A stretch of DNA of 64,000 nucleotides from a virus. The notes below the pieces were generated by a model that saw nothing but the letters and a program-made list of their open reading frames with translations, was not told the origin of the DNA and ran no database searches. Location of the stretch: positions 1 through 64,000 of the IMG/VR virus record IMGVR_UViG_3300045971_000354. One strand, written 5' to 3'. Below, piece by piece: positions 38,459 to 44,837 of this stretch (position 1 is its first letter; every line of letters begins with the position of its first letter). Both the position numbers and the translations under genes were made by a program.

Positions 38459-40192
38459 TTACGATGGTTGGGCTGCGCCTGAGCCAGTTGACCCTGGCAT
38501 GCCAGGTGCAGCTTGGGGCTCTTCCATCGGCATTCCATTTTCATCTTCCATTCCTTCCGGTGGAACTCCTGCTGAATCAATTGCACCCATATCAGCAGCC
38601 GCGCCCGATGCTGTTACTCCTGCACTCCGTAATTCTGCGGCAGCACTTGCAGCATTATTAGGATCTTCAAGATTCTCTTCCTTCCATTTTGTTTCGTTTT
38701 CTACAATCTCTTCGTCAGTTAGTCCTAAGAAACGTTTCATTGCAAACCGTTTACTTAGATATGGAACTGCGATCATCTGTCCAAAAACTCCAACTCGCAC
38801 ACCATCCATTTCTGCTTGGCGGTATGATGCAAAGTTTTGTGGTGGGTTAAACTTTAGATCAAAAATACCTGGATCTATGTTTAGTCCCTTATTATGCAAG
38901 TATAATTTGAATTCGTTATTAAAATGATCGTTAATTAAACTTTGTAGTCGTTCACAGTATTTGTTAAACCTGAGTTCTTGAATATATGCGGTCCCGACTC
39001 GTCCATCATTAAAAGATGAGCCTCCATCGTCCGGACCAGTTGGTAGATAACTACTAGGAATGCGCAAAGCCCTAAACAACTTATTAGTAAAGTAACGTAA
39101 ATCATCAATTTCTCCGAGGTTTGTTCCGCCCGGTAGTAATTCAACCTTACTTCCTCTACCTTCGGCGGTTTGCGGGAAAAAGTAATCTTCGTTTATACTT
39201 AATGGATTATAACTTGCATCTATAACACTTGACCCGCCCCCGGTCATACTTGGGATACGGCGTTGGTTAACTTCGTTCTTTACTCGCTCTACAAAGCCCA
39301 TTGCTAAGTGACTTGGCATGTTTCCTACATCAATATAGAAAACACGACGTTCCGGCGCTCTTTGTACACGGTATATAATAATGGCGTCTTCCAGCAGTTC
39401 TTTCTGCTTATAGACCTTAAAAATGCTCTCTAATAGACTGTTTCCGAACGGAAAGTTGTTATCTAACCCCTCTGACATAGAAAGGTGAATAACGTGCTTT
39501 GCATCGATTGCAAACTGATTTTGATTCAGTTGGAATCGGCCACCCGTATTTGAACTAACTGATCCGGCCGCTTTTCCACTGTTTCCGCCACCGCCGGATG
39601 CAAACGAGCTAGATCCTGGGGTACCAGTAGTATTACTAGGATTAATTGCTGTAACTGTTAAGCTCTGTAAGTTAACATTTAAGTCACGGATAACATATTG
39701 TTCGGGCTTTTTTCCTTCGCTTTCGTTTACAATAACACGGTCAATTTTGTTTGGATCAATATACATCCAAGTGTCTGTTTCCGGGTCGCGAATGAAGAAA
39801 CTGTCACCGTATTTGAAACAGTTACGGACAATTTTAAAGATTCTATTGTGGAATTTGTTTAGCTTAGTCCACTGTTGAAGATACTTTTTAAGTACTTTAA
39901 CTTCAGTTGATGTAGCTTGTTCGCGAAACTTTAAAGCAAACGGCGTGCCATTTTCTTCGTTTGTCTGAGAACAAAATTCTGCTAAAATATCAAGAGCAGC
40001 GTTAACTTCACTATCAGTATCCATTGTGTCGTACTGACCGTATCGTTCTAATCTGTTCGGGTGTCCTGAGTAAACATCAGGCAAATAGCTCGAATAGTTT
40101 GTACGACTTGGATTTGCACGACTACTGGAACTACCAACTGTGCTTTTCGAACCGTCAGTGTTAACCGGGGTAAAATACTTTTTCCATGCCAT
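38459..40192 (-). CDS. gp20: Portal vertex protein gp20
   Basis: Dodecameric portal at one head vertex through which DNA is packaged and ejected. Signature segments: RYGQYDTMDTDSEVNAALDI (about 51-70), NCFKYGDSFFIRDPETDTW (124-142), and YRVQRAPERRVFYIDVGNMP (274-293). At 577 aa it exceeds T4 gp20 (524 aa); extra length lies in a Gly/Ser-rich loop (about 187-218) and in a Pro/Met/Gly-rich C-terminal tail. It starts MAWKKYFTPV, 6 nt after the tape-measure-like gene, in the same operon. Confidence 0.96.
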   Translation of the reverse strand: MAWKKYFTPVNTDGSKSTVGSSSSRANPSRTNYSSYLPDVYSGHPNRLERYGQYDTMDTDSEVNAALDILAEFCSQTNEENGTPFALKFREQATSTEVKVLKKYLQQWTKLNKFHNRIFKIVRNCFKYGDSFFIRDPETDTWMYIDPNKIDRVIVNESEGKKPEQYVIRDLNVNLQSLTVTAINPSNTTGTPGSSSFASGGGGNSGKAAGSVSSNTGGRFQLNQNQFAIDAKHVIHLSMSEGLDNNFPFGNSLLESIFKVYKQKELLEDAIIIYRVQRAPERRVFYIDVGNMPSHLAMGFVERVKNEVNQRRIPSMTGGGSSVIDASYNPLSINEDYFFPQTAEGRGSKVELLPGGTNLGEIDDLRYFTNKLFRALRIPSSYLPTGPDDGGSSFNDGRVGTAYIQELRFNKYCERLQSLINDHFNNEFKLYLHNKGLNIDPGIFDLKFNPPQNFASYRQAEMDGVRVGVFGQMIAVPYLSKRFAMKRFLGLTDEEIVENETKWKEENLEDPNNAASAAAELRSAGVTASGAAADMGAIDSAGVPPEGMEDENGMPMEEPQAAPGMPGSTGSGAAQPS

Positions 40193-40198
40193 TAATCA

Positions 40199-43000
40199 TT
40201 ATCCTTTTAGTCTATTACCACCTGCTGCCATCAAGTCCTTAGTGCGTCTTGTGTTGTCAGAAGTATCTCGAGTTGCTTGTAGAAGCAATGCGAACTGTTT
40301 ATTTAACAGTTGTAGCTCGTTAGTTAAAATTTCTACAGGGTCTTTAGATTTAATAGGAACAGCGGTAGCAGCAGGGTTAGGAGCGTTATCATACGCTGAT
40401 TTTTCTTGTTTTGCTTTCTCTTCTGAGGCCTTTGCCCGGTCTGCTTTTTCTTTTTCTGGGGAAGGAGCAGGTGGTGGTAAATTTGTAGCTTCAGTTGCAG
40501 TAGGTGGTACAACGTGTGCCATCGGTGCTCCACGCTTCGGTCCAGATGCACCCGGGGCTGCTGCCGTAGGTTCAGGCTCTGCTGATTTTCCTGTGAAGAA
40601 TTTTACAATTCCGGACCATCCCATATCAGCCAACTTCACTATTCCGTCTTTTATACCGATAAAAAATCTTCCAATTGCAGCAAGCATATCTGTAAACGCT
40701 TCTTTTATCATTTCTCCTGCTTTGGAAAAATCACCTTGTAGTATAAATTTAACTGCTTTAATCAATGCTTTAATTCCGTCCCATAACGGATACAATGCTT
40801 CTATTACTCCTGTAATAACTGGTTGTAAAATAGGAAGAATATTTTCTCTTATAAATTTTACAAGTGTGTTAAAATGGCCCAACAGTAATTTTGTAATATC
40901 AGATAAGTCAGAAAATACCGGACCAAGATCGCTGAATATTTTCCTCATCACTCCGCTTCCAGTTTCTAAAATTGGCGATAAAAATTCTTTTACTGCATCA
41001 AATACACCCTTAAATGCTTTGCCTAACCCTGTACCGATACCTTTAAAGTCCACTGAATCAAACGCAGATTTTATTCCTTTACATTCTTCTTTTACTAAAT
41101 TTAAAAATCCATCAAATATATTTGTTAGATCAGCTAACTTCGATCCTGAGAAAAATGCATCATATAACGATTTGCCAAAATCATAAATTGCAGTAAATGC
41201 ATCTTTTATAAATGTACCAACTGCTTTCCAATCAATTGCATCGCTTATCTTTTTAACAAAAGTACTCACTAACATGAATCCTTTTCTAAAGGCGCCGCCA
41301 ACTGCTTCCCAATCGATCATCTTCATCACATCACCTACAAAAGATACAATTGGTTTGAAGAAACTAACGATTCCGTTTTTAACACCTTCAAGATCTAACC
41401 CGCCGTTTCCACCAAATAATCCCTTCCAAAAATCCTTAAAAGGTTTTATAAAGTCGTTAAGTTTTAGTCCGCCGAACAATTCTTTAAACACAGGAACAAC
41501 TACTTTATCTATAACATTTGTTGCAAACTTTGCAATTACAGGAGCAAACTTTGCAAATGAATCTGTTAAGAATGTAATTACAGGAAATAGTGGGGTTAGC
41601 GCCGTTGCTAACATATCCATTAAATTTCCAGCAAACTTTGCTCTTGCTTGTGCTTGGGCAGCATCGCCGGCTGCAGAATCTTTTGCCTTATCTTGCTCTT
41701 TTCTAATTTTATCTTTTTGTGCAATAATCTTTTCTTCAGTATCAAGGCCTTGTCGTTTTAATTCTCCGTAGCTCTTTGCGCCGGCGGTTGCTGTTTCTGC
41801 AAGTGTTCCTCCAGCCATAATTTGTGCATTCATTACAGTTTTATTCTTCTCATAAAAATCTGCACTTTCTTTTCTTCCTTTTGCATCAAGCTTGTCTAAT
41901 TTTGTTCTTGCTTCTTGTGCAGATGATCCGTCTTCAATAACTGCTGCCTGTTCTCTAACAGTTGCAGCAGCTTCGGCATTTGCTGCTGTAAATTGCTGTG
42001 CAGCTTTAGTCATAGGAGGTAATCCTAACATCTGACTCTGTAATGCTTCTGCTGCACCTTTACCGCCGATTCGCAATGCAGAGTTGTACGCCTGTTGATA
42101 TTTTGCTTTCTCATCTTCAGTCATCGAAGCAAGCTTTGCATTCACTGCGGCATTTGCTGCGGCTTCTTTCATTTCTTCTGCTTTTTGCTGTCTACTTTTA
42201 CCTTCCAACTGAGCCGATGCATCAAGTTCTTCTGCAAACAATTGAACCGTCTTAGTCATTTTAGTTTGATCTTGCATCTGATTTGCATTCAACCCACCAA
42301 CAGATGCAGAATACTGACCTAGCAAATTATTTGCTTCAGTTAGACTGTATCCCATACCGAGCAAGCCCTTACCTACCTCACCTTTAATTAATGTGCTATT
42401 AAACTTAATTAAATTCTTTGCACCTTCATCAGCAGTTGCTCCCATAAATCGTAGCTGTGGACCATTTTGCTTCATCACAGTTGCAAACTCATCCATTCCT
42501 AACCCCATGTTCATTGCAGAGGTACGAACTTCAGTTAAATTTCCACCGAGACGTGCACCAACATCACTAATTTGATCATAAACTCTAAGATTTGATTCTA
42601 ACTTCTTTGTGTTATAAGTCATTGCATTTGCAACTAACCCCAACCCAAATGGTAGGCCACTAAGACCTTCAGTTAATGAATGTAAACTATTTGTTCCTTC
42701 GATTGCACCTTGCGACAGCGCCATTTGTTGAGCTGCTAGAGTTTTTCCAGTCGATACAAGGGTTGATAATCCTGCGCCCGCAAGATTTAGTGCAGCAGAA
42801 AAAGTTCCGGATATCACCGAACCTACAGTTTTAAATACTCCACCTAGTACACTAGCCGCAGTACCGGCGACGCCTCCGCCTCCACCGCCTCCACCCGCGG
42901 CGTTGCCGGTGGACCTTGCCGCAAGACTTCTAAGCGAGTCAGCTTGTGCTCGATTTATATCAATTAATTCTGCTAGTAGTGCTTCGGATGCAGCGCTCAT
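40199..43000 (-). CDS. Tail tape-measure-like protein, 933 aa (gp29 analogue)
   Basis: Likely sets tail length. N-terminal helix, then an eight-glycine linker (about 36-43), then a hydrophobic small-residue region (VLGGVFKTVGSVISGTF), long Ala/Lys/Glu helices (KTVQLFAEELDASAQLEGKSRQ and following), and a hydrophobic central region with repeated FKPIVSFVGDVMKM / KAVGTFIKDAFTAIYDF-type amphipathic segments, typical of tape measures. The C-terminal 130 residues are Pro/Ala/Lys-rich and end in a coiled coil. It is longer than T4 gp29 (590 aa). The divergent neighbour is the gp26-like gene with a frameshift, the classic companion of tape measures. Its place directly upstream of the portal is unlike T4. 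Identity with gp29 is inferred from architecture and context. Confidence 0.72.
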   Translation of the reverse strand: MSAASEALLAELIDINRAQADSLRSLAARSTGNAAGGGGGGGGVAGTAASVLGGVFKTVGSVISGTFSAALNLAGAGLSTLVSTGKTLAAQQMALSQGAIEGTNSLHSLTEGLSGLPFGLGLVANAMTYNTKKLESNLRVYDQISDVGARLGGNLTEVRTSAMNMGLGMDEFATVMKQNGPQLRFMGATADEGAKNLIKFNSTLIKGEVGKGLLGMGYSLTEANNLLGQYSASVGGLNANQMQDQTKMTKTVQLFAEELDASAQLEGKSRQQKAEEMKEAAANAAVNAKLASMTEDEKAKYQQAYNSALRIGGKGAAEALQSQMLGLPPMTKAAQQFTAANAEAAATVREQAAVIEDGSSAQEARTKLDKLDAKGRKESADFYEKNKTVMNAQIMAGGTLAETATAGAKSYGELKRQGLDTEEKIIAQKDKIRKEQDKAKDSAAGDAAQAQARAKFAGNLMDMLATALTPLFPVITFLTDSFAKFAPVIAKFATNVIDKVVVPVFKELFGGLKLNDFIKPFKDFWKGLFGGNGGLDLEGVKNGIVSFFKPIVSFVGDVMKMIDWEAVGGAFRKGFMLVSTFVKKISDAIDWKAVGTFIKDAFTAIYDFGKSLYDAFFSGSKLADLTNIFDGFLNLVKEECKGIKSAFDSVDFKGIGTGLGKAFKGVFDAVKEFLSPILETGSGVMRKIFSDLGPVFSDLSDITKLLLGHFNTLVKFIRENILPILQPVITGVIEALYPLWDGIKALIKAVKFILQGDFSKAGEMIKEAFTDMLAAIGRFFIGIKDGIVKLADMGWSGIVKFFTGKSAEPEPTAAAPGASGPKRGAPMAHVVPPTATEATNLPPPAPSPEKEKADRAKASEEKAKQEKSAYDNAPNPAATAVPIKSKDPVEILTNELQLLNKQFALLLQATRDTSDNTRRTKDLMAAGGNRLKG

Positions 43001-43062: not shown

Positions 43063-43075
43063 GGAGATAAAAACT

Positions 43076-43960
43076 ATGTCAAATTCGCCGTTACAGCCCA
43101 TGAAAAAAGTTAATCCGTTAACAAGTTTCATGCGCCAACCCAAAATTTACATTACATTGCCCAGCCAAGGAATGTATTGGGCACCCGGAAGTATACAAGT
43201 TCCGGAAACAGGCGAACTTCCTGTATTTTCAATGACTGCAAAAGACGAACTTGCGTTTAAAACTCCCGATGCATTACTTAACGGTCAAGCAGTAGTTGAT
43301 GTTATTCAAAGTTGTATTCCCGCTATCAAGGATGCATGGCGTACTCCTAATATTGATCTCGACTTAATCTTAATTGCTATTAGAATTGCAACGTACGGTG
43401 AAAAGATGGAAATTACTCACAAAGTACCAAATACTGAAGAAGAAGTAGAGCACGAGATCGATCTTCGAACACTTGTTGATCAATTGTCAATAAGCAAATG
43501 GGAAGAAGCTGTAGATATTAGCGACGATCTAACGTGTTTTATTCGACCTCTAACTTATAAGCATATGACTGCTACCGGGTTAAAAACGTTTGAAACCCAA
43601 AGATTAATGCAAGCTGTGAACGACGAAACGTTAACTGATGAAAGAAAATTAGAAATTTTCAATCAAAGCTTTAACAAAATGACTGACATTACTATCGATT
43701 TAATGGCAGACACTATTTCAAGTATTCAAACACCTGATGCAATTGTTAAAGATCCTGTGTTCATTAAGGAATTTTTGCAGAATGCCGATAAAGAAGTTTT
43801 CCAGAAACTTCAAAATCATTTAAACAAACTGAAATTAGTTACTGGATTACAACCGTTAAAAATGAAGTCAACTCCCGAGCTAATTGAAGCAGGGGCTCCT
43901 GAAACTTACGAGTTACCAATTAAAATTGACAACGCTGATTTTTTCGGACAAGGCTCTTAA
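43076..43960 (+). CDS. gp26: gp26-like baseplate hub / tail-assembly chaperone, 294 aa (zero-frame product)
   Basis: Family of T4 gene 26 (T4 baseplate protein family). Features: NPLTSFMRQPKIYITLPSQG, GELPVFSMTAKDELAFKTPD, LNGQAVVDVIQSCIPAIKDAW, and DLDLILIAIRIATYGEKM in the first 120 residues. The start is ATG 43076 with GGAG 9 nt upstream; an earlier TTG would overlap that site. In T4, genes 26 and 51 are adjacent and lie just before the tape-measure region. Here the 26-like gene ends at a slippery T TTT TTC, and a -1 shift joins it to a gp51-like frame. As I recall, relatives have Cys-x-x-Cys pairs at two points where this protein has none. Identification is strong, the chaperone role inferred. 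Confidence 0.87.
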   Translation: MSNSPLQPMKKVNPLTSFMRQPKIYITLPSQGMYWAPGSIQVPETGELPVFSMTAKDELAFKTPDALLNGQAVVDVIQSCIPAIKDAWRTPNIDLDLILIAIRIATYGEKMEITHKVPNTEEEVEHEIDLRTLVDQLSISKWEEAVDISDDLTCFIRPLTYKHMTATGLKTFETQRLMQAVNDETLTDERKLEIFNQSFNKMTDITIDLMADTISSIQTPDAIVKDPVFIKEFLQNADKEVFQKLQNHLNKLKLVTGLQPLKMKSTPELIEAGAPETYELPIKIDNADFFGQGS

Positions 43961-44000
43961 CACTATCTAATCAAGAGATAGAAAAGCTCGTTAAGAGCCT
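43939..44000 (+). promoter_or_regulatory. Programmed -1 ribosomal frameshift signal
   Basis: Slippery heptamer T TTT TTC (43939-43945) in the gp26 reading frame, 12 nt before its stop. After a 5-nt spacer (43946-43950) comes a perfect 11-bp stem, AGGCTCTTAAC (43951-43961) with GTTAAGAGCCT (43990-44000). Inside it is a second 6-bp stem, CTATCT (43963-43968) with AGATAG (43976-43981), with a 7-base loop. Heptamer, spacer and stem fit the X XXY YYZ rule for -1 frameshifting. The zero-frame stop TAA lies inside the stem. Confidence 0.85.
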
Positions 44001-44175
44001 CGAAGACGAGTCTAAATCATTTAAAAAGAATTTGTTTAAACTTTGCTGGTATATGCGAGGAAGTTTAACTTTCGAAGAAGCATTTCAGCTTGACCACGAA
44101 AGTCGAGAAATTATATATCAAATAGTTGAAGAGAACCTTGCAACTACAAAAGAAAGCGGATTACCTTTCTTTTAA
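43945..44175 (+). CDS. gp51: gp51-like frame, expressed as a -1 frameshift extension of gp26
   Basis: From the slip site the -1 frame is open for 76 codons and ends NLATTKESGLPFF. Its C-terminal half (LFKLCWYMRGSLTFEEAFQL, then a helix rich in charged residues, then TTKESGLPFF) resembles small gp51-type proteins of T4-like aquatic phages. There is no ribosome-binding site and no ATG until codon 50 of the frame, in the middle of the conserved part; the frame begins after a TGA just upstream of the slip site. Independent expression is therefore unlikely, and a 366-aa gp26-gp51 fusion is predicted. Its stop overlaps the stop of the opposing minus-strand gene by 4 bp. Confidence 0.78.
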   Translation, partial: RTRLLTLSNQEIEKLVKSLEDESKSFKKNLFKLCWYMRGSLTFEEAFQLDHESREIIYQIVEENLATTKESGLPFF

Positions 44176-44837
44176 ATCATCATACCAAGAAACTTGCTTT
44201 CTACTTTGTAGCTTTCTGCTGCAACTTTTGGCTGTAGTAATGCAGCAGTTTTCTTTCCGCCGGGAACTACTTTTGCATTTGCTAATTTATTTGCAGGCGC
44301 TGCGGCAGGTACTGCTGTTGGAAGTTGACCTTGCATATTTGGAGTAACTGCTCCAGGAGTAGTAAATGATTTAGGCGATGCAGCAACTCCTGCTGGAGCA
44401 GGTTTTGGTACTGCTTGCTGCGCAGCAGATTGTTGACTCTTAGAAATTGCAGATACTTGAGCAGTTAGTGCAGCAATCTTAGTCTGTAACGATTGCATCT
44501 GACCTGTAAGTTTCGGAATAGCGTTATTTGTTTGCGGTGCTGCTGGAGCAGATTGTGCGGCCGGAGCAGCAGGTTGTGGTGCTGTTTGTTGTGTTGCTTG
44601 TGGAGTTCCTGCAACTGGTTTAGCTACAGCCGGTGATAATGCCTGTTGCCCACCAACAAAATTCTGTCCACTTTGAAAACCAGATTTAGCAGCGTTCCAT
44701 ACACCTTTAGCAGCGCCTGCAACTCCACCTACTGCATTTGCAGTTTTTCCTAAAGCAGATCCTACTCCTCTTACTGCATCGCTTGCAGTAAGTTCATCTA
44801 TCTGAGTACGATCTTCTAAAATCTGATTAATCTTCAT
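44172..44837 (-). CDS. Ala/Pro/Gln-rich protein, 221 aa, unknown function
   Basis: It starts MKINQILEDRTQIDELTASDAV with AAAGGAATAG upstream. The first 70 residues are a Gly/Ala-rich small-residue helix region (GSALGKTANAVGGVAGAAKGV). The middle is low-complexity Pro/Ala/Gln (TPQATQQTAPQPAAPAAQ), followed by a short coiled coil (QMQSLQTKIAALTAQVSAI) and another Ala/Pro-rich tail. The overall look is that of a flexible internal virion or scaffold protein, but I do not recognise a family. It has its own late-promoter motif 27 nt upstream and converges on the gp26/51 gene. Confidence 0.65.
   Translation of the reverse strand: MKINQILEDRTQIDELTASDAVRGVGSALGKTANAVGGVAGAAKGVWNAAKSGFQSGQNFVGGQQALSPAVAKPVAGTPQATQQTAPQPAAPAAQSAPAAPQTNNAIPKLTGQMQSLQTKIAALTAQVSAISKSQQSAAQQAVPKPAPAGVAASPKSFTTPGAVTPNMQGQLPTAVPAAAPANKLANAKVVPGGKKTAALLQPKVAAESYKVESKFLGMMI

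Follow-up and report, generated by a model that had tools for sequence, protein, structure and literature searches.

A conserved slippery heptamer and a covarying stem point to −1 frameshifting in the gp26/gp51-like tail-assembly chaperone gene of T4-like viruses

Introduction

A gp26-like gene of an aquatic T4-like virus very probably encodes two products, a short tail-assembly chaperone of 294 aa (TAC-N) and a fusion of 366 aa (TAC-NC), the longer one arising by a stem-stimulated −1 shift at a T TTT TTC heptamer, so that the two would form a pair of the lambda G/GT type. A sequence-only reading had proposed a programmed −1 frameshift of this kind, and the proposal gains strong comparative support from the heptamer (163/163 junctions), a conserved −1 frame and a covarying stem. 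The window is the whole 64,000-nucleotide stretch that was analysed, positions 1–64,000 of the IMG/VR record IMGVR_UViG_3300045971_000354.

Xu et al. reportedly described in 2004 a conserved G–T frameshift of long-tailed phages. A 2016 review describes the lambda G–T frameshift as broadly conserved among long-tailed phages, 'except T4' (PMC5009743). According to two later papers, the identification of T4-like TAC genes is credited to Vladimirov, Gautam & Davidson (Virology 2022, 566:9–15; PMC10885494, PMC12846349); the PRFect paper adds that in some T4-like phages there is a short gene and a long one (PMC10885494), and the Adele paper traces knowledge of poly-T frameshift sites in the TAC-N genes of T4-like phages to the 2022 work (PMC12846349). 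The tie of gp26/gp51 to the general chaperone paradigm, which the sequence-only reading had offered as new, was by the same accounts already made by Vladimirov et al. in 2022 (PMC10885494, PMC12846349), and the core claim is already known in kind. Apparently new, with the 2022 paper represented by those that cite it, are the survey of the aquatic lineage, the covarying stem with its switching 3′ arm and the TTC TTT relic.

Layout of the junction

The 0-frame protein matches PF12322 with an E value of 4.8e-12 (46.5 bits; curated cut-off 24.5) and phrog_150 with an E value of 2.9e-14 (Table 1). It is the single PF12322 match across the 143-kb record, which is possibly incomplete and in which neither two separate paralogous PF12322 genes (the T4-type arrangement) nor a second copy of the −1 domain was found. 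The ORF closes with the codons GAT TTT TTC GGA CAA GGC TCT TAA, the heptamer ending 12 nt ahead of the stop. A TGA immediately 5′ of the heptamer shuts the −1 frame, so that the open overlap is only 22 nt and the shift must fall at or just after the heptamer; only a −1 shift within this stretch, which the heptamer begins, joins the two frames. The coordinates agree with the heptamer, 5-nt spacer and 11-bp stem of the sequence-only reading, which had also described a 76-codon −1 frame with no start of its own until mid-domain (its first ATG lies at about codon 38). The nested 6-bp stem that it added does appear in the predicted fold but, by inspection, is not conserved in relatives.

Table 1. 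Features of the chaperone locus and its neighbours in the window
Feature	Coordinates	Strand	Basis
Likely ribosome-binding site GGAG, 9 nt ahead of the ATG at 43076	43063–43066	+	Read from sequence
0-frame ORF, short tail-assembly chaperone (TAC-N, T4 gp26 equivalent), 294 aa; stop TAA 43958–43960	43076–43960	+	PF12322 and phrog_150 profile matches
Slippery heptamer T TTT TTC, in frame	43939–43945	+	Sequence; conserved in 163/163 distinct junctions
Spacer, 5 nt	43946–43950	+	Predicted fold and clade comparison
Putative stimulatory stem, 5′ arm, AGGCTCTTAAC; 0-frame stop 43958–43960 inside the arm	43951–43961	+	Fold, covariation
Putative stimulatory stem, 3′ arm, GTTAAGAGCCT; 28-nt loop	43990–44000	+	Fold; pairing across 12 sequences
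−1 frame extension (TAC-C), 76 aa after the shift, stop 44173–44175; equivalent to the T4 gp51 C-terminal extension	43945–44175	+	Sole copy in the record
Tape-measure protein gene, divergent neighbour	40199–43000	−	phrog_4200 E 8.4e-10, phrog_1272 E 3e-9
Portal protein (T4 gp20-like), synteny marker	38459–40192	−	PF07230 E 3.9e-109

Conservation of the heptamer

Relatives were collected in a first scan (32 IMG/VR loci), in a profile scan on internal motifs with the junction excluded (80 more) and in scans for cyanophage-type and KVP40-type loci (82); removal of identical junctions left 163 distinct ones. T TTT TTC is present in every one of them (91 from the window's aquatic clade, 70 cyanophage-type and two KVP40-type), either 3 or 12 nt ahead of the 0-frame stop. 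The codon 5′ of the heptamer ends in T in 163/163, while its residue varies among D, N, S, T, H and A. The Phe-Phe pair at the site is invariably TTT TTC, even though TTT makes up ∼83–85% of Phe codons and TTC is the rarer. These counts treat phylogenetically related sequences as independent, which makes nominal probabilities too small, yet no exception was seen.

Among named phages, the site is found in Atu_ph07, Phosso, 121Q, PA5oct, RaK2, GAP32, CBB, XaC1, Munch, Hallingskeid, P-SSM2, S-PM2 and KVP40; Cr30 and HTVC008M carry T TTT TTT at this position. Salmonella phage Vi01 has an imperfect heptamer, A ATT TTC (site GAA ATT TTC ATT TAA), and in the Ackermannviridae, to which it belongs, a gp51-like C-domain is kept in the −1 frame.

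The putative stimulatory stem

The fold of the window's junction is 3.5 s.d. better than those of dinucleotide shuffles. In the aquatic clade a helix with compensatory changes begins 3–6 nt 3′ of the heptamer, and the −1 ORF is nearly always 78 codons long and gap-free, so that the arms can be compared without fitting. For the 76 aquatic junctions with a 3-nt stop distance, the best-helix mean is 23.6, compared with 11.9 after synonymous recoding (s.d. of the group mean 0.46) and 16.1 (s.d. 0.6) under a column-swap null, in which synonymous codons are exchanged between sequences column by column. The 14 aquatic junctions with a 12-nt stop distance give 26.3 versus 14.2 (synonymous) and 20.8 (column-swap); cyanophage-type junctions exceed the column-swap null by a narrower margin (19.7 versus 18.4, s.d. 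0.19). The sequence-only reading had suggested aligning related T4-like phages for heptamer, spacer and stem, and the alignment returns the heptamer in all distinct junctions with the helix 3–6 nt downstream in the aquatic clade.

The 3′ arm of the aquatic clade occupies a few discrete registers, with 34, 23, 21 and 4 sequences. Register members were grouped by their best helix, and the paired percentages thus lean towards structure: 95.3% of cells in the commonest register, compared with 24–61% when the partner is slid by 1–3 columns, and 95.5% in the window's register (12 sequences), compared with 20–55% when slid. Five pairs in the commonest register show double changes and its covariation score is 0.269 versus 0.100 (s.d. 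0.013); the window's register scores 0.295 versus 0.195 (0.019). The double changes and the synonymous and column-swap nulls do not rest on the grouping in that way. Covariation was left uncounted in register 55, which has the shortest loop, because the arms hardly vary there.

Tested singly, Atu_ph07, Phosso, PA5oct, P-SSM2, S-PM2, Cr30 and KVP40 have better-than-null helices (single-sequence P of 0.003–0.047). The same single-sequence test found no significant helix in 121Q, RaK2, GAP32, CBB, XaC1, Munch, Hallingskeid or HTVC008M. The RaK2-like enterobacterial phages have the heptamer without a significant stem, so the stem is not universal; 121Q, RaK2, GAP32, CBB, Munch and Hallingskeid would either shift without a stem or use another stimulator. 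A pseudoknot between the loop sequence CTCG (about 43988) and a downstream CGAG was considered and dropped, its pairing not being kept in relatives as judged by eye. No matching family was found in Rfam.

Correspondence of the predicted products to T4 gp26 and gp51

The PF12322 profile is covered from end to end by both T4 gp26 (8.8e-64) and T4 gp51 (3.9e-52), which also align with each other in hhalign (98.8); ∼48 further residues occur in gp51 alone. By sequence comparison they are paralogues, gp51 consisting of a gp26-type domain plus a C-terminal extension. The 0-frame product would therefore be the equivalent of gp26 (TAC-N) and the fusion that of the whole of gp51 (TAC-NC). The sequence-only reading had equated the −1 frame with all of a gp51-like protein, but its counterpart is the C-terminal extension of gp51 only.

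The correspondence runs through the cyanophage family. In hhalign, T4 gp51 is matched by the cyanophage fusion all the way to the C-terminus (probability 98.8). The cyanophage −1 domain by itself finds gp51 alignment columns 202–253 (92.4) and no part of gp26, and the match of T4 gp26 is confined to the 0-frame part (99.2). The fusion family of the window can be aligned with the cyanophage fusion almost from end to end (90.3). hhalign gave no direct alignment of the window's family to T4 gp51, and a profile comparison of this family with the single T4 gp26 and gp51 sequences gave nothing usable. The database record of KVP40 describes its small downstream gene as resembling the last 40 residues of T4 gp51.

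T4 genes 26 and 51 are adjacent, as the sequence-only reading had stated, but divergently transcribed. T4 gp26 ends in GAG TTC TTT GAG with the −1 frame closed, and in most T-even-type genomes examined the Phe-Phe of gp26 is likewise TTC TTT and the −1 frame is shut at once. In one T4-type genome (L234) the gp51 frame is broken after 120 aa and homology continues in another frame, an error or decay.

An AF2 model of the 0-frame protein (pLDDT 81) matches predicted T4-like baseplate hub/gp26 proteins. Foldseek gave no significant match in the PDB, the HK97 chaperone 2ob9 appearing at rank 28 (E 3.4, TMt 0.35). The model also matches ∼500-aa uncharacterised proteins (A0A191ZCG4, A0A0K2QR08, A0A1L7N169 and A0A7R8R5F3; Foldseek probability 1.00, E about 1e-4 to 1e-7, TMq ∼0.5) from the jumbo phages Erwinia Special G, Ralstonia RSF1 and RP12, and Klebsiella Eowyn. 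On the strength of these model matches, they may be unrecognised tail-assembly chaperones.

The −1 frame and alternative explanations

In many relatives the −1 frame opens 0–3 codons 5′ of the heptamer, and the −1 residues right after the site are conserved in the aquatic junctions (R in 90/90, R/K in 88/90 and L in 83/90). These residues bear on an alternative in which TAC-C would be a small protein in its own right, initiated close to the end of the 0 frame through reinitiation or translational coupling; cyanophage gp51 is annotated in this way. Annotators do call two genes, an ATG stands within the first 10 −1 codons in each of the 67 cyanophage-type junctions, and in Atu_ph07 and Phosso an ATGA spans the 0-frame stop. 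The conserved −1 residues, however, precede any start; in 48 of the 90 aquatic junctions the first 25 −1 codons contain no ATG, in the window none occurs before about codon 38, and 17 of the 90 have no ATG, GTG or TTG within those 25 codons. A separate TAC-C would moreover leave the heptamer and stem without a role, and its counterpart T4 gp51 is a full fusion. We regard this explanation as very improbable; reinitiation may contribute product in some of the relatives, yet it is unlikely as the mechanism common to them. The sequence-only reading would have counted against frameshifting any relatives that lack the heptamer and have an independent start for the gp51-like frame: the heptamer is never missing, whereas an early −1 ATG occurs in about half of the aquatic clade and in all cyanophage-type junctions. 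The small ORF that carries the label 'gp51' or 'hypothetical' in the annotation of many jumbo phages and cyanophages probably encodes the end of a fusion.

Transcriptional slippage, in which RNA polymerase slips on the T run and part of the mRNA encodes the fusion, is a shade less probable still. The site does contain a run of six T, and longer runs occur in Cr30 and HTVC008M, but six is short and the run ends in C in 163/163 junctions, which pure slippage does not need, while a covarying stem 3–6 nt downstream suits a ribosomal stimulator. A sequencing error or a decayed gene, conceivable for one metagenomic record, is refuted by the recurrence of the break, at an identical position, in named isolates as well as in 163 distinct junctions that come from independent samples.

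Neighbouring genes and the virion

The tape-measure gene lies divergently alongside the chaperone gene, as the sequence-only reading had it, and this order is common to Phosso, 121Q, PA5oct and CBB. In P-SSM2, HTVC008M and probably KVP40 the gene pair immediately precedes the tape-measure region and shares its strand. Mass spectrometry of the CBB virion detected the tape-measure neighbour CBB_251 with 29 peptides and 50% coverage (PMC5259590). CBB_250 and CBB_249 are missing from the same table, although non-detection is no proof of absence (PMC5259590). CBB_250 (L238:829–1686) is annotated as a 'structural protein' in spite of being missing from that table. The PA5oct record marks the portal and tape-measure proteins as found by mass spectrometry and not the hub gene, with the same reservation that non-detection does not prove absence. 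Family, position, two-product anatomy and non-detection in the CBB virion together suggest a role as tape-measure chaperone.

On the other side, positions 44172–44837 (−) encode a 221-aa protein, rich in Ala and Pro and weakly matching coiled-coil-like sequences, whose ORF ends over the −1 ORF stop in a convergent 4-nt overlap. The TATAAATA late-promoter motif occurs twice in the whole window against ∼7.7 expected, below chance, and a T4 late promoter is unsupported. Genes resembling gp46/47 are present in the window, though T4-type late promoters are not evident.

Proposed mechanism

Comparison among relatives brings out the heptamer, the open and conserved −1 frame, the covarying stem and the predicted equivalence of the products to gp26 and gp51; we infer that the shift takes place in vivo, how often it does so and what the products bind, along the following course. 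Most ribosomes would stay in the 0 frame and end at 43958–43960, giving TAC-N. A minority, delayed by the stem starting 5 nt downstream, would slip one base back with both tRNA-Phe on U UUU UUC and go on in the −1 frame to give TAC-NC. If the products behave like lambda gpG/gpGT, the N-domain common to both would coat the tape-measure protein, the C-domain would recruit tail-tube subunits and neither product would stay in the virion.

Evolution and implications

In a tree of the N-domain the jumbo/aquatic branch is split from the rest (100/100), and T-even gp26 and gp51 are weakly sisters (87/63); a single gp26/gp51 duplication in the T-even line is likely. We lean slightly towards a history in which the −1 shift with its stem was the ancestral two-chaperone route of the T4 superfamily and was replaced once, by the T-even duplication that dismantled the heptamer, while in the lineage that kept it the 3′ arm moved repeatedly and the 5′ arm stayed fixed. 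The comparisons place the T4 'exception': the −1 arrangement is present in most T4-like lineages examined, two genes occur only in T-even-type genomes, and T-even gp26 still shows remains of the broken heptamer. The partner-switching stem offers a natural series for the evolution of frameshift stimulators inside coding sequence, and the −1 arrangement lends itself to simple experiments in phages that infect laboratory strains of E. coli; Sharanji, a relative of 121Q, is listed with E. coli K-12 MG1655 as its host.

Comparison with known systems

Among the closest parallels are the gp26 plus small gp51 pairs of cyanophages, KVP40 and RaK2-like phages, which share the −1 arrangement and T TTT TTC; the cyanophage pairs differ from the window in having an ATG just after the 0-frame stop, and the RaK2-like pairs in having no significant stem. 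In the Vandenendeviridae and Andersonviridae, TAC-N and TAC-NC are made by a −1 shift on a poly-T motif, which is there GTTTTT, according to the available portion of PMC12846349, in which no analysis of an RNA helix is described. T4 gp26/gp51, assigned to baseplate hub assembly, belong to the same PF12322 family, gp26 corresponding to the predicted unshifted product and gp51 to the shifted one, but T4 uses two divergently transcribed genes and no frameshift.

With respect to lambda gpG/gpGT, the slippery heptamer of lambda is G GGA AAG, whereas here it is T TTT TTC followed by an extended covarying stem; the tape measure is divergent here and downstream in lambda; and the family here is PF12322, its likeness to gpG being drawn from anatomy and not from sequence. 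As in lambda, where the products do not stay in the virion, the products of the relative CBB were not found in virion mass spectrometry, non-detection being no proof. In both systems a single gene beside the tape measure would give a short and a long product through −1 shifting shortly before the first ORF ends, with the C-domain encoded in the −1 frame.
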